64,000 nt of DNA from Croceicoccus pelagius (GTDB lineage Bacteria > Pseudomonadota > Alphaproteobacteria > Sphingomonadales > Sphingomonadaceae). The first letter of the stretch is position 1. The number at the start of each line of letters is the position of its first letter. The notes below the pieces were generated by a model, which was not told where the DNA came from, searched no databases, and saw only the letters and a list, made by a program, of their open reading frames with translations. The stretch is from assembly GCF_001661915.1 (NCBI RefSeq), contig NZ_LYWY01000037.1:62001-126000 (forward strand), in the 5' to 3' direction. Of this stretch, positions 46,086-63,651 are shown one piece after another. Position numbers and translations under genes: made by a program.

Positions 46086-46790
46086 TTATTCCTCGGGGAT
46101 GCCTTCGGCGCGACGGGCGGCAAGCCACGCCTCCGCTTCGGCTTCCTGGGCCGCTGTGACAGCTGCGCGAGCAGCGTCTTCACGCTCTTTCTTCAGCTCG
46201 TCGATCAGAGCCTGCTTGTCGTCAACCAGCTTCGAATCCGGAATGGCGTCAGCCTCAATGCCTGCCTTCTTCGCGGCCTTGGCGACAGCGGAATCGAGCT
46301 CGCGCTGCGAACAAAGGCCCAGCGTAACCGGGTCCTTCGGGTTGATGTTCTGGATGTTCCAGTGGCTGCGTTCGCGGATCGCGCCGATGGTGTTGCGGGT
46401 CGTGCCGATCAGCTTGCCGATCTGCGCGTCCGACATTTCGGGGTGATTACGCAGGATCCACGCGATGCCGTCGGGCTTGTCCTGACGCTTGGACACCGGG
46501 GTATAGCGCGGGCCCTTGGTACGCTGGATCTGCACCGGCACCTTCTGGATCTTCAGCTTGTAGGTCGAGTCGGCCTGGCCTTTCTCGATCTCGTCGTGCG
46601 TCAGTTCGCCCGAACGCACGGGATCGCGGCCGGTGTACTTTGCGCCTGCAAGATCGTCGGCCATGGCCTGGACCTCGAGGATGTGGAGGCCGCAGAATTC
46701 GGCAATCTGCTCGAAAGTCAGGCCGGTATTGTCGACCAGCCAGCTTGCCGTGGCGTGCGGCATCAGCGGAGTGGCTTGATTCTGGCTCAC
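46086..46790 (-). CDS. trcR: Cell-cycle transcriptional regulator TrcR (DUF1013)
   Basis: The 234-residue protein matches the DUF1013 family, named TrcR in Caulobacter, where it associates with RNA polymerase and cell-cycle promoters. Family blocks are PLMPHATASWLVDNTGLTFEQIAEFCGLHILEVQ, KGPRYTPVSKRQDKPDGIAWILRNHPEMSDAQIGKLIGTTRNTI and WNIQNINPKDPVTLGLCSQRELDSAV. A C-terminal charged helix follows. Two helix-turn-helix-like segments are visible. GTG 46790 after GAGAGG is the start. It is likely transcribed alone, with a good terminator behind it. Confidence 0.9.
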   Translation of the reverse strand: MSQNQATPLMPHATASWLVDNTGLTFEQIAEFCGLHILEVQAMADDLAGAKYTGRDPVRSGELTHDEIEKGQADSTYKLKIQKVPVQIQRTKGPRYTPVSKRQDKPDGIAWILRNHPEMSDAQIGKLIGTTRNTIGAIRERSHWNIQNINPKDPVTLGLCSQRELDSAVAKAAKKAGIEADAIPDSKLVDDKQALIDELKKEREDAARAAVTAAQEAEAEAWLAARRAEGIPEE

Positions 46791-46960
46791 GCTAAAAACC
46801 TCTCGAAAAAGGGGCCCGGTCGATCGTTCGGAAAAGGTGCCGGGCGGTAAATACGATAAGGGCCGCCCCTTACCGGAGCGGCCGCTTGCGCTGTCGCATT
46901 TAGGCCAAGGCGTCGCTTTCGGCAAGGCCGGATACGGCCCTGCTACGGATTCACGGGGTT

Positions 46961-47581
46961 TCAGCCTTTCATCGCGACATATCCGGGCAGAGTCTCGATC
47001 CGCGAAAGCCACCGCTCCACCGCCGGATAGCCCGACAGGTCGAAGCCCGCCTCGCCCGCGACGTGAGTGTAAGGATATAGCATGAGGTCCGCGAGCGTCG
47101 GCCCCTCCCCCACCAGCCAGTCGCGGGCGGCCAGTTCGCGATCCATCAGCGCGAGCGCGGCCTCACCCCCTGCCCGCTTGCCGGGGATCGCAGCCGTCTG
47201 GACGGCATCAAGGGCGCCCTCGCCCACGACCGTCAGCCAGAAGCGCAGGGTCGCCACGTTCGGCTCGTGATTGTACTGCTCGAAGAACATCCAGCGCAGC
47301 ATGTCGGCGCGTGCGAACCTGTTCTCGGGAATGAAAGGCAATCCTTCCGCGAGATAGACACATGCCGCGTTGCTTTCCGGCAGAAAGCGGTCTCCCACCT
47401 GAAGCACGGGGATACGCCCGTTCGCGTTCACTTCGGCAAGAAACTCCGGCGTGCGGGTTTCGCCCTTCGTGATGTCGTAGGCCCGTCGCTCGATCGCTAC
47501 TCCGACCAGCGCGGCGGTCAGCCGGATCTTGTAGCAATTGCCGCTGATCGGGTCCTCGTGAAGGACCAGCCGGTCAGACAT
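46961..47581 (-). CDS. Glutathione S-transferase family protein
   Basis: The 206-residue protein has the thioredoxin-like N-terminal domain (LVLHEDPISGNCYKIRLTAALVGV, NGRIPVLQVGDRFLPESNAACVYLAE with the cis-proline and Glu-Ser glutathione site). The helical C-terminal domain (RDWLVGEGPTLADLMLYPYTHVAGEAGFDLSGYPAVERWL) follows. The active residue may be Ser or Asn near SGNC. Substrate is unknown. Its ATG overlaps the stop of the upstream quinone oxidoreductase gene by eight bases, so both act from one message. Confidence 0.92.
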   Translation of the reverse strand: MSDRLVLHEDPISGNCYKIRLTAALVGVAIERRAYDITKGETRTPEFLAEVNANGRIPVLQVGDRFLPESNAACVYLAEGLPFIPENRFARADMLRWMFFEQYNHEPNVATLRFWLTVVGEGALDAVQTAAIPGKRAGGEAALALMDRELAARDWLVGEGPTLADLMLYPYTHVAGEAGFDLSGYPAVERWLSRIETLPGYVAMKG

Positions 47582-53094: not shown

Positions 53095-53675
53095 GTCGGC
53101 AGCTCGCCCTCTGCGCGCAGTGCGCCCAGCACTTCGAGCAGCGGCATCCCGAGAACCGTGAACTGGTCGCCGTCAATGCTTTCGAAAAGCTGTGGACCCA
53201 ATGCCTCGATACGGAAAACGCCGACGCAATAGCCGACTTCGGGCCATTCCGCATCGAGGTAGCTCTCGATAAACGCCTCGCTGAGATCTCGGACCTTGAG
53301 GCGGGCGAGGCTGACCGTGCGGAACACGATCTCTCCGCCACGCGCAAGAACTGCCGCGCTATAGAGGTACATGACCCGGCCCGAAAAGAAGCGCAGGTGC
53401 TGCGCGGCGTTCTCGCGGCTCGCCGGCTTGTCGAACCGCTCGCCATCCACAACGACGAGCGAGTCGCTGCCCAGCACGAGTTCGCGCGGGCGCAAGGCCG
53501 ATACGCCCAACGCCTTTGCCGCCGCCAGCTTTTCGGCAACATCAGGGGGAAGCGCGTCTTCCAGTTCCGTCTCGAGCGCGCGTTCGTCGAGATCGGCTGG
53601 CACCGCCTCGAAAGCGACGCCGGCAGACGTCAGCATCGCCTGGCGCGAAGCACTTTTCGACGCGAGTACGATCAT
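53091..53675 (-). CDS. maf: Maf family nucleotide pyrophosphatase
   Basis: Maf proteins hydrolyse modified or canonical NTPs such as dTTP or UTP. The 194-residue product has the N-terminal [25 protein letters not shown] with the catalytic aspartate, and [32 protein letters not shown]. The last part is typical of the alphaproteobacterial branch. It overlaps ppsR and aroE by four bases each. Confidence 0.93.
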
Positions 53676-54517
53676 ACTGGGTTCGTCCCGGCATTGCGCG
53701 GCGACATCTGGGTGCGGCGCTCGTTATAGAGATTGATGACTGCGGCGGCCGTTTCCTCGATGGAGCGGCGCGTCACGTCGATTACCGGCCAATTGTTGTC
53801 AGCGGCCATGCGGCGGGCATAGCGGACTTCGTCTTCGACCTGCTCCTTGTCCACATAGGCCGTCTCGGGCGCCTGGTTGAGCGACAGAAGCCGGTTCCGG
53901 CGAACCTGGATCAAGCGATCGGGCGAAGTCGTCAGCCCCACGACCATCGGCCGCTTCAACCGGAACAGGTTCGGAGGGGGCGGGGATTCCTTTACGATCG
54001 GGATATTGGCAACGCGATACCCGCGATTGGCAAGATAGATCGACGTCGGCGTTTTCGACGTGCGCGATACGCCGGCAAGGACGATGTCGGCCTCTTCCCA
54101 CTCTTCCCACATCAGCCCGTCGTCGTGAGCGATGGTGAACTGGATCGCTTCGACACGCTTGAAATAGGCTTCGTCCATCTGATGTTGGCGGCCCGGGCGG
54201 TGGAGCTGTTCCTGTCCCAGCGCGAGCGACAGGCTCTCCGTCACGGCATCGAGCGCCGAAACGGTCGGCATATTCGCCTCAGCACATGACTCTTCAAGAC
54301 TCCGGCGAATGTCGGGATTTACCAGCGTGAACACGACAAGGCCCGGAAAATGCGTGATTTCCTGCATGATCCGGTCAAGATGCTGCTGCGAGCGCACCAT
54401 CGGCCAGAAATGCCGCTCGACCTCGACTGCGTCGAACTGCGACAATGCCGCCTTGGCTATCATTTCAAGTGTCTCTCCGGTCGAATCGGACAGGAGATGG
54501 AGGTGAAGCTTGGTCAT
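53672..54517 (-). CDS. ppsR: Bifunctional kinase/pyrophosphorylase regulating PPDK or PEP synthase
   Basis: This DUF299 protein (281 residues) phosphorylates with ADP, and dephosphorylates with phosphate, a threonine of pyruvate phosphate dikinase or PEP synthase. It has [20 protein letters not shown] at the start, and the P-loop-like [30 protein letters not shown] 54517 is chosen because earlier in-frame codons lie in the origin region. In Caulobacter and Rickettsia the same gene lies beside oriC opposite hemE, as here. It is the first gene of the series ppsR-maf-aroE-coaE. Confidence 0.93.
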
Positions 54518-54833
54518 GCGGCCCCGGATGCCTGTGGACAGGTGGCCGGATAAACCACGGGAGGGAACTGCGGACAAGCGAAAGGGTCGAAACTGCACCC
54601 GCTGTCCCTGATTCCATTCAGGGTATTTCTGGACAGGGACAACAATCCCCCACAGGCTGTGGGTAAGGCGAACAAGTTTCGTTTGACCACGGACCGGGCG
54701 GGATTCGGGTGGCCGAAATGGGCATGGCCTTTGCCGGATAATTCGGGCAGGGCCGCGCAATCCCCGATATCCACAGGACCAACAGAGTCCATCAACCCTT
54801 TTAAAATTTAATTATTTGGAGTTTCTAAGGGGC
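54518..54833. other. Probable chromosomal replication origin (oriC)
   Basis: This 316-bp gap has no gene and lies between divergent ppsR and hemE, the origin position known from Caulobacter. DnaA-box-like 9-mers (consensus TTATCCACA) are ATATCCACA at 54767-54775 (8/9), TGTGGGTAA at 54658-54666 (complement TTACCCACA, 8/9), and TGTGGACAG at 54533-54541 (complement CTGTCCACA, 7/9). An A+T-rich tract at 54798-54818 next to hemE can serve as unwinding element. GANTC sites, targets of CcrM methylation, are at 54610, 54702 and 54785. Genes on both sides mainly point away from it. Confidence 0.75.
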
Positions 54834-55859
54834 ATGCCCGGTCTTTTGCTCGACACATTGAAGGGAACGAACGGTTCCCGCCGCCCGCTTTGGCTCATGC
54901 GCCAGGCAGGTCGCTATCTGCCTGAATATCGCGCGCTTCGTGCGGAAAAAGGCGGTTTCCTTGCACTCGTCTATGACTGCGAGGCCGCGGCCGAAGTCAC
55001 GCTGCAACCGATCGACAGGTTCGGTTTCGACGGCGCGATCCTGTTCTCCGATATCCTGATCGTCCCTTACGCGATGGGTCAGGATCTGCAGTTCCTTGCC
55101 GGCGAAGGTCCGCACCTTTCGCCGCGCCTGGCAGATGCCGCGCTCGCCTCGCTGGAAATGGTGCCCGAGCGGTTGACGCCGATCTACCGGACGGTCCAGC
55201 TTTGCGTAGAACGGCTCGACGACACGAAGACGATGCTGGGTTTCGCAGGCTCTCCGTGGACGGTCGCGACCTACATGGTGAACGGCGAGGGGAGCCGCGA
55301 TCAGCACGCTGCGCGCGAAATGGCCTATGGCGATCCGGCAGCGTTCAAGGCGATCATCGATGGAATCGCCGACGTTACGGTCGAATATCTCGTCGGGCAG
55401 GCAAGGGCAGGGGCAGAGGCGGTACAGCTGTTCGATTCGTGGTCGGGCAGCCTTGCACCGGACGAATTCGAACGCTGGGTTATCGCGCCCAATGCCGCGA
55501 TCACAGCGCGGTTCAAGCAGCAGTGTCCTGGCGTTCCAGTGATCGGATTTCCGAAGGGCGCTGGCGAGAAGCTGGCCGCCTATGCGCGTGAAACCGGCGT
55601 CGACGCAGTTGGCGTGGACGAGACTGTCGATCCGGTCTGGGCCGCGCGCGAACTGCCCGCGAACATGCCAGTGCAGGGCAATCTCGATCCGCTGCTCCTG
55701 CTTTCGGGCGGTAAACGCATGACCGACCGGGCGAAGTTCGTTCTCGATTGCTTTGCCGACAGGCCGCACGTCTTCAATCTTGGCCACGGGATCGGCAAGG
55801 AGACGCCGATCGCCCATGTCGAAGACCTGCTTGCGACCGTAAGAAAGTGGTCCCGCTAA
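54834..55859 (+). CDS. hemE: Uroporphyrinogen decarboxylase
   Basis: HemE removes four carboxyls from uroporphyrinogen III in heme synthesis. The 341-residue product has RPLWLMRQAGRYLPEYRALR at its N-terminus, ILFSDILIVPYAMGQ with the substrate aspartate, GFAGSPWTVATYMVNGEGS, and VFNLGHGIGKETPI. ATG 54834 follows CTAAGGGGC. An upstream in-frame TTG at 54816 lies in the A+T-rich tract and is unlikely. It is next to hemJ, a second heme gene. Confidence 0.96.
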   Translation: MPGLLLDTLKGTNGSRRPLWLMRQAGRYLPEYRALRAEKGGFLALVYDCEAAAEVTLQPIDRFGFDGAILFSDILIVPYAMGQDLQFLAGEGPHLSPRLADAALASLEMVPERLTPIYRTVQLCVERLDDTKTMLGFAGSPWTVATYMVNGEGSRDQHAAREMAYGDPAAFKAIIDGIADVTVEYLVGQARAGAEAVQLFDSWSGSLAPDEFERWVIAPNAAITARFKQQCPGVPVIGFPKGAGEKLAAYARETGVDAVGVDETVDPVWAARELPANMPVQGNLDPLLLLSGGKRMTDRAKFVLDCFADRPHVFNLGHGIGKETPIAHVEDLLATVRKWSR

Positions 55860-57932: not shown

Positions 57933-58631
57933 TTAGGCGAGGTTCGCGGCAAAGAATTCCGCCGTGCGCTTGTCGGCAAGATTTGCGCCTTCCTCGTTAC
58001 GGCGCTTGCCCATTTCGGTTGCGAAACCGTGATCCAGCCCTTCGTAGTCGTGGAGCGTGACCTTGGGGTGATCGTCCAGCCCCTCGTGCATCTTGGCCTG
58101 CGCTTCGGGCGAAACGAAGCCATCTTCCGTCGGGATATGAAGCATCAGCGGATGGGCGATGGCGTGAGATTCGTTGAGCATCTGGTCGATCATCACACCG
58201 TAATAACCCACGCTGGCATCGATATCGGTGCGTGTCGCGGTCATGTAGGCAAGCTTGCCACCAAGGCAGTATCCGACGCATCCGACTTTCGCGACGCCTT
58301 CCTTCTGGCGAATGAAGTGGATCGTCGCCTCGATGTCGCGCACGTTCTTGTCAGGGTTGTTCTTGCCCATGTAGTCGAGCGCTGTCTGGAATTCTTTTTC
58401 GACATCGGGGTCGAGCTCGATGCCGGGTTCGATCCGCCAGAACAGGTCGGGGGCGACGGCGAGATAACCTGCAGCGGCCAGCTTGTCGCATTTTTTCCGG
58501 ATGCCTTCGTTTACGCCGAAGATTTCCTGGATGACGATGATCGCGGCGCGCGGTGTCCCCTCGGGGCGGGCGACGTAGGCGCCGAAGCTGTCTTCGCCGC
58601 TCAGCGTCTGGATTTGTGCATTGAAGGCCAT
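57933..58631 (-). CDS. Dienelactone hydrolase family protein
   Basis: The 232-residue alpha/beta hydrolase shows VIQEIFGVNEGIRKKCDKLAAAGY with the assisting glutamate, the nucleophile Cys in VGYCLGGKLAY, the Asp in PTEDGFVSPEA, and the His in LDHGFA. A catabolic operon is not present, so the substrate is uncertain. ATG 58631 follows AGGAGACGACCG. It is the only leftward gene on the right side of the origin. Confidence 0.9.
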   Translation of the reverse strand: MAFNAQIQTLSGEDSFGAYVARPEGTPRAAIIVIQEIFGVNEGIRKKCDKLAAAGYLAVAPDLFWRIEPGIELDPDVEKEFQTALDYMGKNNPDKNVRDIEATIHFIRQKEGVAKVGCVGYCLGGKLAYMTATRTDIDASVGYYGVMIDQMLNESHAIAHPLMLHIPTEDGFVSPEAQAKMHEGLDDHPKVTLHDYEGLDHGFATEMGKRRNEEGANLADKRTAEFFAANLA

Positions 58632-58751
58632 CGGTCGTCTCCTGACATTTTTGCGTTTCCCTGTGGGGATATGGCGCGGTAATGGACTTTGCCAAGGTCG
58701 TATGACAGCTTGGCGCTGCAACGGGTGCTGACGGACGAAGGGAAACAGGCG

Positions 58752-60320: not shown

Positions 60321-60336
60321 TGTTCCACGTGAAACA
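60321..60336. other. parS: parS site 1 (between mnmE and mnmG)
   Basis: TGTTCCACGTGAAACA differs from the parS consensus TGTTTCACGTGAAACA at one base, a position that varies naturally. It begins directly after the mnmE TGA. ParB binds such sites to load the segregation complex near the origin. Confidence 0.93.
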
Positions 60337-60381
60337 CCATCTTGCTTTGACCTGATGGCGGGCCGGTTCTAGAGGGCGGCT

Positions 60382-62232
60382 ATGCAAGAATTCGATGTCG
60401 TCGTTGTAGGTGGAGGACACGCAGGTTGCGAAGCTGCAGCCGCTGCGGCGCGTGCCGGTGCCCGCACGGCGCTCGTGACGTTCGACTGCTCCAAGACCGG
60501 TGCCATGTCGTGCAACCCGGCTATTGGCGGGTTGGGGAAGGGGCACCTCGTGCGCGAGGTTGATGCCTTCGACGGACTAATCGGGCGCGCTGCCGATGCA
60601 GCGGCGATTCATTATCGGATGCTCAATCGGTCGAAGGGGAGCGCTGTGCACGGACCCCGTGTTCAAGCCGATCGCAACCTGTTCCGTCGCGCTATCCAGA
60701 CGATGATCCGGGAGCAGGATGGTCTTGAAGAAATAGAGGGTGAGGTTACGGCGCTACGTCTCTCCGGGGGCCGAGCGAATGGTGTCGTGCTGGGTGATGG
60801 GACCGAGATTGCGGCCGGTGCGGTCGTCCTCTGCACAGGGACGTTTCTTGGCGGTCGGCTTTTCCGCGGCGAGGAAGTATTTGAAGGCGGACGGCTCGGA
60901 GAGGCTGGGGCCCTACGATTGGCGGCACAGCTGCGCGAAGCCGCGCTTCCGATGCAGCGTCTCAAGACTGGCACGCCTCCGCGTCTGGATGGGCGAACGA
61001 TTGACTGGGCGAGATTGGAGGAACAGCCGTCCGATCCGGATCAGTGGACGATGTCGCCCATGACGAAGGAACGGGCAAATCCTCAGGTCTTCTGCTCAAT
61101 CACGCGAACCACCACCGAAACCCACGAGATCATCCGCGGGGGTCTTGATCGGTCGCCCTTGTTCAGCGGGGCGATCGATGCACGTGGGCCACGCTATTGT
61201 CCTTCGATCGAAGACAAGATCCACCGTTTCGCCGATCGTGAAAGCCACCAGATCTTCCTGGAGCCGGAGGGTCTCGACACGCACCTGATCTATCCGAACG
61301 GGATCAGTACGTCGTTGCCAACCGACATCCAGTTGGCTTTCCTCCGGACTATTAAGGGACTTGAAAGAGTCACGATGGCGGTGCCGGGTTATGCGGTTGA
61401 GTATGACCACGTGGATCCGCGATGTCTGCATCGCACGCTTGAGCTACAGGCGATCCCGGGACTCTACTGTGCAGGACAGATCAACGGTACGACGGGGTAT
61501 GAGGAGGCAGCCGCCCAAGGGTTGATTGCCGGGCTCGAAGCGGCATGTGCTGTGCTTGGCAAACAGGGGCCGGCGATCGATCGCGCCAATAGCTACATGG
61601 CAGTTATGATCGACGACCTCACCCTTCATGGTGTGAGCGAGCCTTATCGCATGTTGACGGCAAGGGCAGAGTACCGTCTCCGCCTCCGTGCAAGCAATGC
61701 GTCTTCACGGCTGACCCCGGCGGCGCTTGAGGTTGGATGTGTTCGGGCAGAGCGCCGAGAATGGTTTCAGCGTCGGGGTGTTTCACGTGAAACACTAGAC
61801 GGGCAGTTCGCAAAGACCTGGACCGGATCCCAACTTGTCGCGCTGGGAATCGATGTGCGTCAAGACCTGCCGTCGACCAGTTTGACCGATTGGCTTCGCT
61901 TCGATAGCGTTGCTGCTGCTATCTGTGGCCTGATTGAACCTGACTTCGACGATCACGATCTTCTTGAGGAGATGGTCGAGGACGCGCGTTATGCGCCCTA
62001 TCTTGCGCGTCAAGAGGCCGAACTACGTGATCTCCGGGCCGGCGAAGCACTCCGTCTTGCACCCGACTTTCCATACGGCGACATACCCGGCCTTTCACGT
62101 GAAATGGTCGAACGGCTTACCAACGCAAGACCCGACAGCCTCGCCGCAGCAGCTCGCATTGCCGGGATCACGCCTGCCGCCCTCTCGGCGCTTCTGGTTC
62201 ATGCCCGTCGACGTGCGAACGAGGTTGCCTGA
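60382..62232 (+). CDS. mnmG: tRNA uridine-5-carboxymethylaminomethyl enzyme MnmG
   Basis: MnmG (GidA) is the FAD/NADH partner of MnmE. The 616-residue protein has the dinucleotide loop [80 protein letters not shown], and [25 protein letters not shown]. The helical C-terminal domain binds MnmE. Two parS-like sites lie inside the gene. The stop TGA overlaps the rsmG ATG by one base (TGATG). Confidence 0.96.
61779..61794. other. parS: parS site 2 (inside mnmG)
   Basis: TGTTTCACGTGAAACA is a perfect match to the parS consensus. In the mnmG frame it encodes the stretch VSRET. Confidence 0.96.
62091..62106. other. Degenerate parS-like site (inside mnmG)
   Basis: CCTTTCACGTGAAATG keeps the 12-bp core TTTCACGTGAAA but has lost both outer base pairs. 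It encodes LSREM in the same frame as site 2. ParB binding would be weak. Confidence 0.6.
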
Positions 62233-62864
62233 TGTTCGACAATCAGGACGAGAGCTGGTCGCGCGAGTGGTTACGATCCGAGTTGAATGTAGAGAATGAT
62301 GGTTTCCAGCGGCTTGAGACGCTACTGGCGATGCTTGTCACTGAGGCCGGAACTCAGAACCTGATTGCGAAAGGGACGGTGCCTTTCGCATGGTCTCGAC
62401 ACATCGTCGACAGCGCGCAGTTGCTCACTCATGTTTCACGTGAAACAGCTACTTGGCTTGATCTGGGCACTGGTGCTGGGTTCCCTGGCCTTGTCTGTGC
62501 AGCACTCTTACCGGGCTGCAATTTCACTTTGGCGGAGCAGAGACCGCTCCGCACCGATTGGCTGGAAAGGGCCGCAGAAGGGATGCGACTCGAGAATGTG
62601 TATATCGTGACAGCCAACGTCTCGCAGCTTCCCGAGATGAAATACGATGCGATCAGCGCCCGCGCCTTCGCGCCTTTGCCCCGTTTGCTCAGGCTATCCG
62701 CCGCCTTTTCCACAAAGGCTACCGAATGGCTCTTGCCCAAGGGGCGCTCGGCAAAGCAGGAATTGGAAGACTTGAAGGGGTGGCGGCATGCGTTCCACGT
62801 GGAACAGTCGGTAACCGATCCGCAATCGGGCATTATTATCGGGAATTTGCTCGGTCCAAAATAA
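62232..62864 (+). CDS. rsmG: 16S rRNA (guanine527-N7)-methyltransferase RsmG
   Basis: RsmG (GidB) methylates G527 of 16S rRNA with SAM; its loss gives low-level streptomycin resistance. The 210-residue product has the lead-in helix LETLLAMLVTEAGTQNLIAKGT, HIVDSAQLL, the SAM loop WLDLGTGAGFPGLVCAALL, VTANVSQLP, and ISARAFAPLPRLLRLS. Two parS-like sites are inside the gene. It starts within the mnmG stop and ends 13 bp before parA. Confidence 0.95.
   Translation: MFDNQDESWSREWLRSELNVENDGFQRLETLLAMLVTEAGTQNLIAKGTVPFAWSRHIVDSAQLLTHVSRETATWLDLGTGAGFPGLVCAALLPGCNFTLAEQRPLRTDWLERAAEGMRLENVYIVTANVSQLPEMKYDAISARAFAPLPRLLRLSAAFSTKATEWLLPKGRSAKQELEDLKGWRHAFHVEQSVTDPQSGIIIGNLLGPK
62432..62447. other. 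parS: parS site 3 (inside rsmG)
   Basis: TGTTTCACGTGAAACA is a second perfect match to consensus. It encodes VSRET in the rsmG frame. Confidence 0.96.
62791..62806. other. parS-like site 4 (inside rsmG)
   Basis: CGTTCCACGTGGAACA matches the symmetric variant TGTTCCACGTGGAACA at 15 of 16 positions and the consensus at 13. It lies 72 bp before the parA start. Confidence 0.7.
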
Positions 62865-62877
62865 AGCGAGGGTTCGC

Positions 62878-63651
62878 ATGATCACGATAGCGGTTGCCAA
62901 TCAAAAGGGCGGGGTTGGCAAGACCACCAGCGCCGTGAATCTCGCAACCGCGTTTGCCGCGATCGGTTGGCGGACGCTTCTTGTCGATCTCGATCCGCAG
63001 GGCAACGCGTCAACCGGCCTTGGCATCGAACGCGAAGATCGCGTGAAGTCTAGCTATGACCTGTTGGTCGATGGCATTCCGATTGATGACTGCATCGTGA
63101 GAACGCAGATTCCCGACCTCGATCTGCTCCCCGCGACGGTTGACCTGTCAGGTGCTGAAATCGAACTCGTCGAGATGCATGATCGCACTGGCCGACTGCG
63201 CGCAGGACTTGCCGAAGCCCATCACGACATCTGCTTCGTCGATTGCCCACCTTCGCTGGGACTGCTCACGCTCAATGCGCTGACGGCAGCAGATCGTCTT
63301 CTCGTTCCGCTGCAGTGCGAGTTCTATGCGCTTGAGGGACTCAGCCAGCTGCTCATTACGGTCGAGCAGGTACAGCAGCGCTTCAATCCCGAACTCGCAA
63401 TTGTCGGCATCGCACTCACCATGTACGATCGCCGTAATCGCCTGACCGATCAGGTTTCGGACGATGTACGCAATGTTCTTGGCAAGCTGGTCTTCGAAGC
63501 CGTGGTGCCGCGAAACGTCCGTTTGTCCGAGGCGCCGAGCCACGGACTTCCCGCCATCGTTTATGACCACAACTGCACCGGATCGCGCGCCTATATGGAT
63601 CTTGCGCGCGAACTGATCGGTCGCTTGCCCGAAAAGAGGAAAGCCGCATGA
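62878..63651 (+). CDS. parA: Chromosome partitioning ATPase ParA (Soj)
   Basis: ParA binds DNA when ATP-bound and moves ParB-parS complexes. The 257-residue protein has the deviant Walker A KGGVGKTT (residues 10-17), LVDLDPQGNASTGLG, VDCPPSLGLLTLNAL with the Walker B Asp, and DRRNRLTDQVSDDVR. It has no N-terminal helix-turn-helix, so it is the chromosomal type. It overlaps parB by four bases. Confidence 0.96.
   Translation: MITIAVANQKGGVGKTTSAVNLATAFAAIGWRTLLVDLDPQGNASTGLGIEREDRVKSSYDLLVDGIPIDDCIVRTQIPDLDLLPATVDLSGAEIELVEMHDRTGRLRAGLAEAHHDICFVDCPPSLGLLTLNALTAADRLLVPLQCEFYALEGLSQLLITVEQVQQRFNPELAIVGIALTMYDRRNRLTDQVSDDVRNVLGKLVFEAVVPRNVRLSEAPSHGLPAIVYDHNCTGSRAYMDLARELIGRLPEKRKAA

Follow-up and report, generated by a model that had tools for sequence, protein, structure and literature searches.

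The origins of replication closest to the locus described here are those of alphaproteobacteria that lie beside hemE. The origin of Caulobacter crescentus (Cori) reportedly sits in a hemE/DUF299 context, as described by Brassinga et al., and the origin of Rickettsia prowazekii occupies the same gene neighbourhood as the ppsR-hemE gap. Judging by the title of a 2002 paper, Brassinga et al. are also said to have found conserved CtrA and IHF sites in the Rickettsia prowazekii origin. Cori is bound and repressed by CtrA, and in Caulobacter parS lies within 8 kb of the origin (PMC4468827). Within the Sphingomonadaceae, PMC4741004 places the predicted origin of Sphingopyxis granuli TFA, and of most family members in DoriC, beside hemE (DoriC/Ori-Finder), reporting putative DnaA boxes, an unwinding element and conserved gene order. 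The Croceicoccus gap shares with Sphingopyxis granuli the family, the hemE-side location and the conserved gene order (PMC4741004), and with Cori the hemE/DUF299 context, weak DnaA boxes and GANTC motifs in the origin (PMC3973325). It belongs to the known hemE-type alphaproteobacterial origins, and its location is not new, because published predictions already place most Sphingomonadaceae origins beside hemE. The contribution made here is the layout read from the aligned sequences: rigid spacing, six degenerate predicted DnaA boxes, an invariant GANTC and two conserved motifs (E1 and E2). No description of E1, E2 or the invariant GANTC was found in the literature searched, a comparison made outside the element figure of PMC4741004, whose analysis covers Sphingopyxis and is itself a prediction.

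The window, that is the whole stretch of DNA analysed, comprises 64,000 nucleotides and corresponds to positions 62001-126000 on a 385-kb contig. The genome, from a Croceicoccus (order Sphingomonadales), is a 3.30-Mb draft in 40 contigs. A first-pass annotation, made from the sequence alone, had proposed an origin between ppsR and hemE, and its limits of the gap and the divergent starts of both genes are correct (Table 1). Its description of genes pointing outward on both sides also holds: hemE, UPF0093, rho, mnmE, mnmG, rsmG and parA follow on the plus strand to the right, and ppsR, maf, aroE and coaE on the minus strand to the left. The single exception is a dienelactone hydrolase-family gene (57936-58721, minus) that points at the origin within the otherwise co-directional hemE-parB block. 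On the other side, about 8 kb from the origin, is a match to TrcR (Pfam PF06242, transcriptional cell cycle regulator; 46089-47012, minus; E=1.2e-61). The parABS system was likewise rightly noticed nearby, with parA in the window and parB just outside. Four parS matches were found in the window against 0.1 expected, the fourth (at 62791) with 3 mismatches. The parS sites are 5.5-7.6 kb from hemE, and parS and parAB together lie 5.5-10 kb from the gap; parS within about 10 kb of the candidate origin is a mark of hemE-type alphaproteobacterial origins. At least three parS sites precede parA: one a short way upstream of mnmG, one within mnmG and one within rsmG.

Table 1. Features of the putative origin and its surroundings (window positions).
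Feature	Position	Strand	Remarks
ppsR (DUF299 / Kinase-PPPase, PF03618)	53675..54517	-	start at 54517
Putative chromosomal origin (oriC)	54518..54833		whole ppsR-hemE intergenic gap, 316 bp
Predicted DnaA box B1	54533..54541	-	CTGTCCACA, 7/9; core TGTGGANA nearly invariant
Conserved element E1	54550..54562	+	ATAAACCACGGGA
Predicted degenerate DnaA box B2	54569..54577	-	TTGTCCGCA, 7/9; GACAA invariant
GANTC site	54610..54614		position not conserved
Predicted degenerate DnaA box B3	54628..54636	-	consensus TGTGGACAG, here TCTGGACAG; column frequencies, 109 species
Two facing predicted DnaA boxes B4/B5	54646..54666		around CCACAGGCTGTGG
Predicted DnaA box B5	54658..54666	-	TTACCCACA, 8/9
CcrM-type site GA[G/T]TCG, invariant	54702..54707		GATTCG here
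Conserved element E2	54735..54749	+	consensus GGGANAAWTCGGGCA; left half resembles weak DnaA box
Predicted DnaA box B6	54767..54775	+	ATATCCACA, 8/9; inside conserved block TATCCACAGGRCCAAC, beside unwinding region
GANTC site between B6 and A+T-rich tract	54785..54789		62/109 at same column
Putative DNA unwinding element	54799..54828	+	87% A+T, highest of any 30-mer in the 64-kb window
hemE, uroporphyrinogen decarboxylase (TIGR01464)	54834..55859	+	start at 54834
parS sites	60321..62447	+	60321 (15/16), 61779 (16/16), 62432 (16/16)
parA	62878..63651	+	parB next, just beyond window

We are highly confident that the single main chromosome has its DnaA-dependent origin in the ppsR-hemE gap, because the skew switch, the conserved gene context, the conserved DnaA boxes, the A+T-rich tract and the nearby parABS all agree; the origin first proposed is supported on the same grounds. 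Total GC skew on the contig is negative in all seven stretches or stretch parts leftward of the gap and positive in all ten rightward (two flanking stretches were divided at 54600, and the negativity on the left is stated bar noise in third-position skew). Cumulative skew, suggested in the first-pass annotation as a check, is favourable over the part of the chromosome covered: across 264 contiguous kb the raw minimum falls at 53543, and a change-point fits best at 54000 (54.0 kb; block-permutation p=0.0056), with a wide bootstrap 95% interval of 27-95 kb. Since the genome is a 40-contig draft, the whole-chromosome minimum was examined only in sampled complete relatives, four single-contig genomes represented by 20 stretches of 20 kb each. 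In these, skew differs between the left and the right of hemE (p=0.0003, 0.015, 0.0007 and 0.003), so that the sign change typical of a hemE-type origin is seen at the site both in our contig and in all four relatives, one of them noisy.

An origin at dnaA is ruled out by the skew split in three of the four complete relatives, where cutting at hemE clearly beats cutting at dnaA and dnaA lies 250-509 kb from hemE (123-509 kb over all four). The fourth (G011, 123 kb) has noisy skew; its dnaA split scores slightly above its hemE split (2.25 vs 1.97), and the two cannot be told apart. In the Croceicoccus genome dnaA is on a different contig from hemE.

The divergent ppsR-hemE gap, which is the intergenic setting of hemE-type origins, was present in 123/123 close relatives (297-385 bp, and 675 bp in one), in 28 of 30 members of the order picked for distance and in 22 of 30 members of other orders. 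The placement shared with Caulobacter and Rickettsia, which the first-pass annotation had drawn upon, agrees with this divergent hemE-DUF299/ppsR context. The 675-bp gap, twice the usual length, belongs to a relative of the same genus (L012, G005) and contains additional, insertion-like A+T-rich sequence towards ppsR. In one genus of the family, three species (L249, L253 and L255) have lost ppsR from the origin flank, so that maf is now adjacent; in front of hemE all three retain an origin-like block, with a DnaA box together with five or six GANTC sites.

We aligned 109 distinct gaps (109 species) with a mean pairwise identity of 59%; the sequences are related by descent, so a count such as 109/109 does not represent that many independent observations. 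Near-invariant blocks stand at almost fixed distances across the alignment, in the order B1, E1, B2, B3, facing B4/B5, TTGAC, GANTC, E2, B6 and A+T-rich tract from ppsR to hemE. The distance is 16-17 bp from B1 to E1, exactly 23 bp from E1 to B2 in 108/109, 18-19 bp from TTGAC to GANTC, 34-37 bp from GANTC to E2, and 32 bp from E2 to B6 in 104/109.

In Escherichia coli, oriC combines DnaA boxes, an A+T-rich tract and methylation sites concentrated in the origin under Dam/SeqA control. The Croceicoccus gap resembles it in having predicted DnaA boxes, an A+T-rich tract beside a box oriented like R1, and methylation sites within the origin. Scored against the consensus TTATCCACA, the three box-like 9-mers reported in the first pass hold up as B6, B5 and B1. 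The best boxes of the gap match at 8/9, and no DnaA box in the window itself is perfect; two 8/9 boxes within 316 bp have P of about 6e-4 at window density (7 such boxes per 64 kb). The cluster is conserved among relatives, as is characteristic of hemE-type origins: TCCACA cores number 2.93 per gap vs 0.17 in shuffles, and the B1 region (54533-54540) has a mean information content of 1.68 bits. A further mark of such origins is an A+T-rich region beside a DnaA box, and the tract first noticed near the hemE start is the window's top 30-mer. The gap had also been said to depart from textbook origins in box spacing and degeneracy. The boxes are indeed degenerate, but their positions are conserved in 109 species and are accompanied by conserved elements that had been missed. 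The sequence after the last DnaA box gives no convincing sign of a DnaA-trio element (3-nt repeats) in the Croceicoccus clade: its lag-3 self-match reaches 0.40-0.45 in the wider family and also in other families and orders, but 0.34 among the 109 core species, where it barely exceeds the values at lags 1 and 7. The single-stranded fold of 54590-54700 is no more stable than shuffles (z -1.0).

All three GANTC sites of the first-pass annotation are in place. GANTC is depleted across the window (117 vs 329 expected), and three or more in the gap have P of about 0.02 at window density, a modest signal when taken alone. Origin gaps hold 5.21 GANTC each vs 1.50 in shuffles; a general intergenic effect was rejected, as other intergenic regions of the sampled genomes hold 0.4-0.8 vs about 5 at origins. 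In another family of the order, the hemE origins of L215 and L217 have 13 GANTC each in 457 bp, far above their neighbours. At column 54702 the motif is present in 109/109 gaps, with G (74) or T (35) at N and G as the next base in 98%, while the remaining GANTC sites of the same gaps have all four letters at N, C being commonest. In the wider family a mid-gap GANTCG occurs in 126/135, also with A and C at N. In many relatives the invariant site is preceded, at a distance of 16-17 bp (column 54685), by another GANTC, sometimes inverted as CGACTC...GAGTCG. The inverted CGANTC...GANTCG pair was found in 28/109 core and 5/26 wider sequences vs 0.65 and 0.2 in shuffles, and its upstream partner is missing from the Croceicoccus window sequence.

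The genome encodes DnaA, a CtrA orthologue (above its cut-off), a GcrA-family protein (above the Pfam cut-off, below that of NCBIfam) and a CcrM-type enzyme whose alignment spans almost the whole of the CcrM profile from NCBIfam (606 bits, below the model's strict cut-off). Given the column conservation, the enrichment of GANTC in origins and the encoded CcrM-type enzyme, the 54702 site fits a CcrM target, and it appears to fit most of the extended GcrA/CcrM-responsive motif YGAKTCG (PMC7987155): GAKTC is kept in 109/109 and the trailing G in 98%, the leading Y varies, and N can be A or C in more distant genera. We regard the site as a very probable substrate of the CcrM orthologue and hypothesise, from its conservation, that methylation there may regulate initiation. 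Caution is needed here because Caulobacter also has GANTC in its origin, yet deletion of ccrM left DNA content unchanged (PMC3973325). Compared with GATC and Dam at E. coli oriC, the Croceicoccus gap would rely on GANTC and CcrM, with one fixed site vs many.

E1 is the most conserved block of the gap (1.86 bits per column, above the recognisable DnaA boxes); it is exact in 81/109 gaps and mostly 1-2 bases off in the remainder. It is restricted to Croceicoccus and near genera; within the family, some genera that are more distant have ATAAATCAAGGGA-like sequences in its place, and E1 and E2 were absent from most other families and orders sampled. The possibility that E1 marks a family of sites around the genome was rejected: the Croceicoccus genome has one exact copy of the 11-mer and no excess of 1-mismatch copies over a reversed-pattern control. 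Candidate roles of E1 and E2 are weak DnaA sites, a ppsR promoter (E1/B2) or sites of another factor. We would entertain, with some reserve, that both are weak DnaA sites like the Caulobacter G- and W-boxes and not those of another factor. GGGANAA in E2, with its free position as in the conserved DnaA boxes, and CCAC in E1 are suggestive of this, although E1 is more conserved than the recognisable boxes, the opposite of what weak sites would lead one to expect.

B2 could alternatively be a -35-like hexamer for ppsR. A rather unlikely reading is that E1/B2 within the origin also serve as the ppsR promoter, transcription accounting for part of the extreme conservation: the 23-bp spacing is fixed, the pair lies 33-60 bp upstream of the ppsR start, and TTGTC stands 17 bp from a TG-preceded TTTATS, but the second position of the -10-like hexamer is not the usual A and other genera of the family have ppsR without E1. 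Very improbable, in our judgement, is that the gap is a mere divergent promoter or leader region for ppsR and hemE, the origin being elsewhere, for instance at dnaA or nearer parAB. The exact distance between E1 and B2 does resemble that of a -10/-35 pair, and CTTGTC and GGTTTAT on the minus strand face ppsR. However, no sigma-70-type promoter in the gap passed a consensus scan, the species without ppsR retain the origin-like block, three of four relatives have dnaA at a great distance from the skew switch, and the enrichment of DnaA boxes and GANTC, the skew switch and the A+T maximum would be left unexplained.

Taking the gap as the origin, it differs from those of Caulobacter and Rickettsia in its regulatory sites. 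Unlike CtrA-repressed Cori, it holds no full CtrA consensus (TTAA-N7-TTAA) in any of the 109 species, no TTAACCAT was found, and regulation by CtrA through full consensus sites was rejected. Among 22 origins sampled from other orders, only one has full sites, so their lack is nothing unusual beyond these two models. The ctrA gene is not essential in Sphingomonas melonis, although it has some influence on replication there (PMC8116508). A near match (7/8) lies at 54801-54815, inside the A+T-rich tract. Such near matches occur in 6 of 13 Croceicoccus (the window's own and 5 of 12 others), which are close relatives, vs 0.9 in local shuffles, and show no excess in the whole core set (8 vs 7.4); there may be a weak CtrA site at the level of the genus. 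The absence of CtrA and IHF consensus sites from the 109 gaps is also a difference from the Rickettsia prowazekii origin. For IHF, rejected as a consensus site with 0/109 matches, the best sequences reach 7-8 of 9 fixed positions; ATAAATCAAGGGATGA, which is close to an IHF site, stands at the E1 position in some more distant genera, and the Croceicoccus form is no match.

Bacterial origins are opened when DnaA loads and melts an A+T-rich tract. From the sequence and this general knowledge, we infer that DnaA would load on the cluster of mostly weak boxes B1-B6 at fixed spacing. B6, which is beside the A+T-rich tract and points to it, would help to open it for loading of the helicase, with forks then departing in both directions. 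Once a fork has passed, the 54702 GANTC would be hemimethylated, a state that could signal to GcrA, or to a different reader, that the origin has been replicated. In a more speculative extension, which we regard as improbable, a CcrM checkpoint would replace CtrA repression at sphingomonad origins. A hemimethylated GAKTC, often with a second GANTC 16-17 bp off, would be read by GcrA or a SeqA-like factor that delays re-initiation, and E1 and E2 would bind a lineage-specific initiation regulator.

The analysis fixes the origin of the genus to a 316-bp fragment and provides a 109-species map of its constrained parts. Because GANTC is kept in 109/109 gaps amid divergent surroundings, a direct test of CcrM control at an origin without full CtrA sites would be possible.
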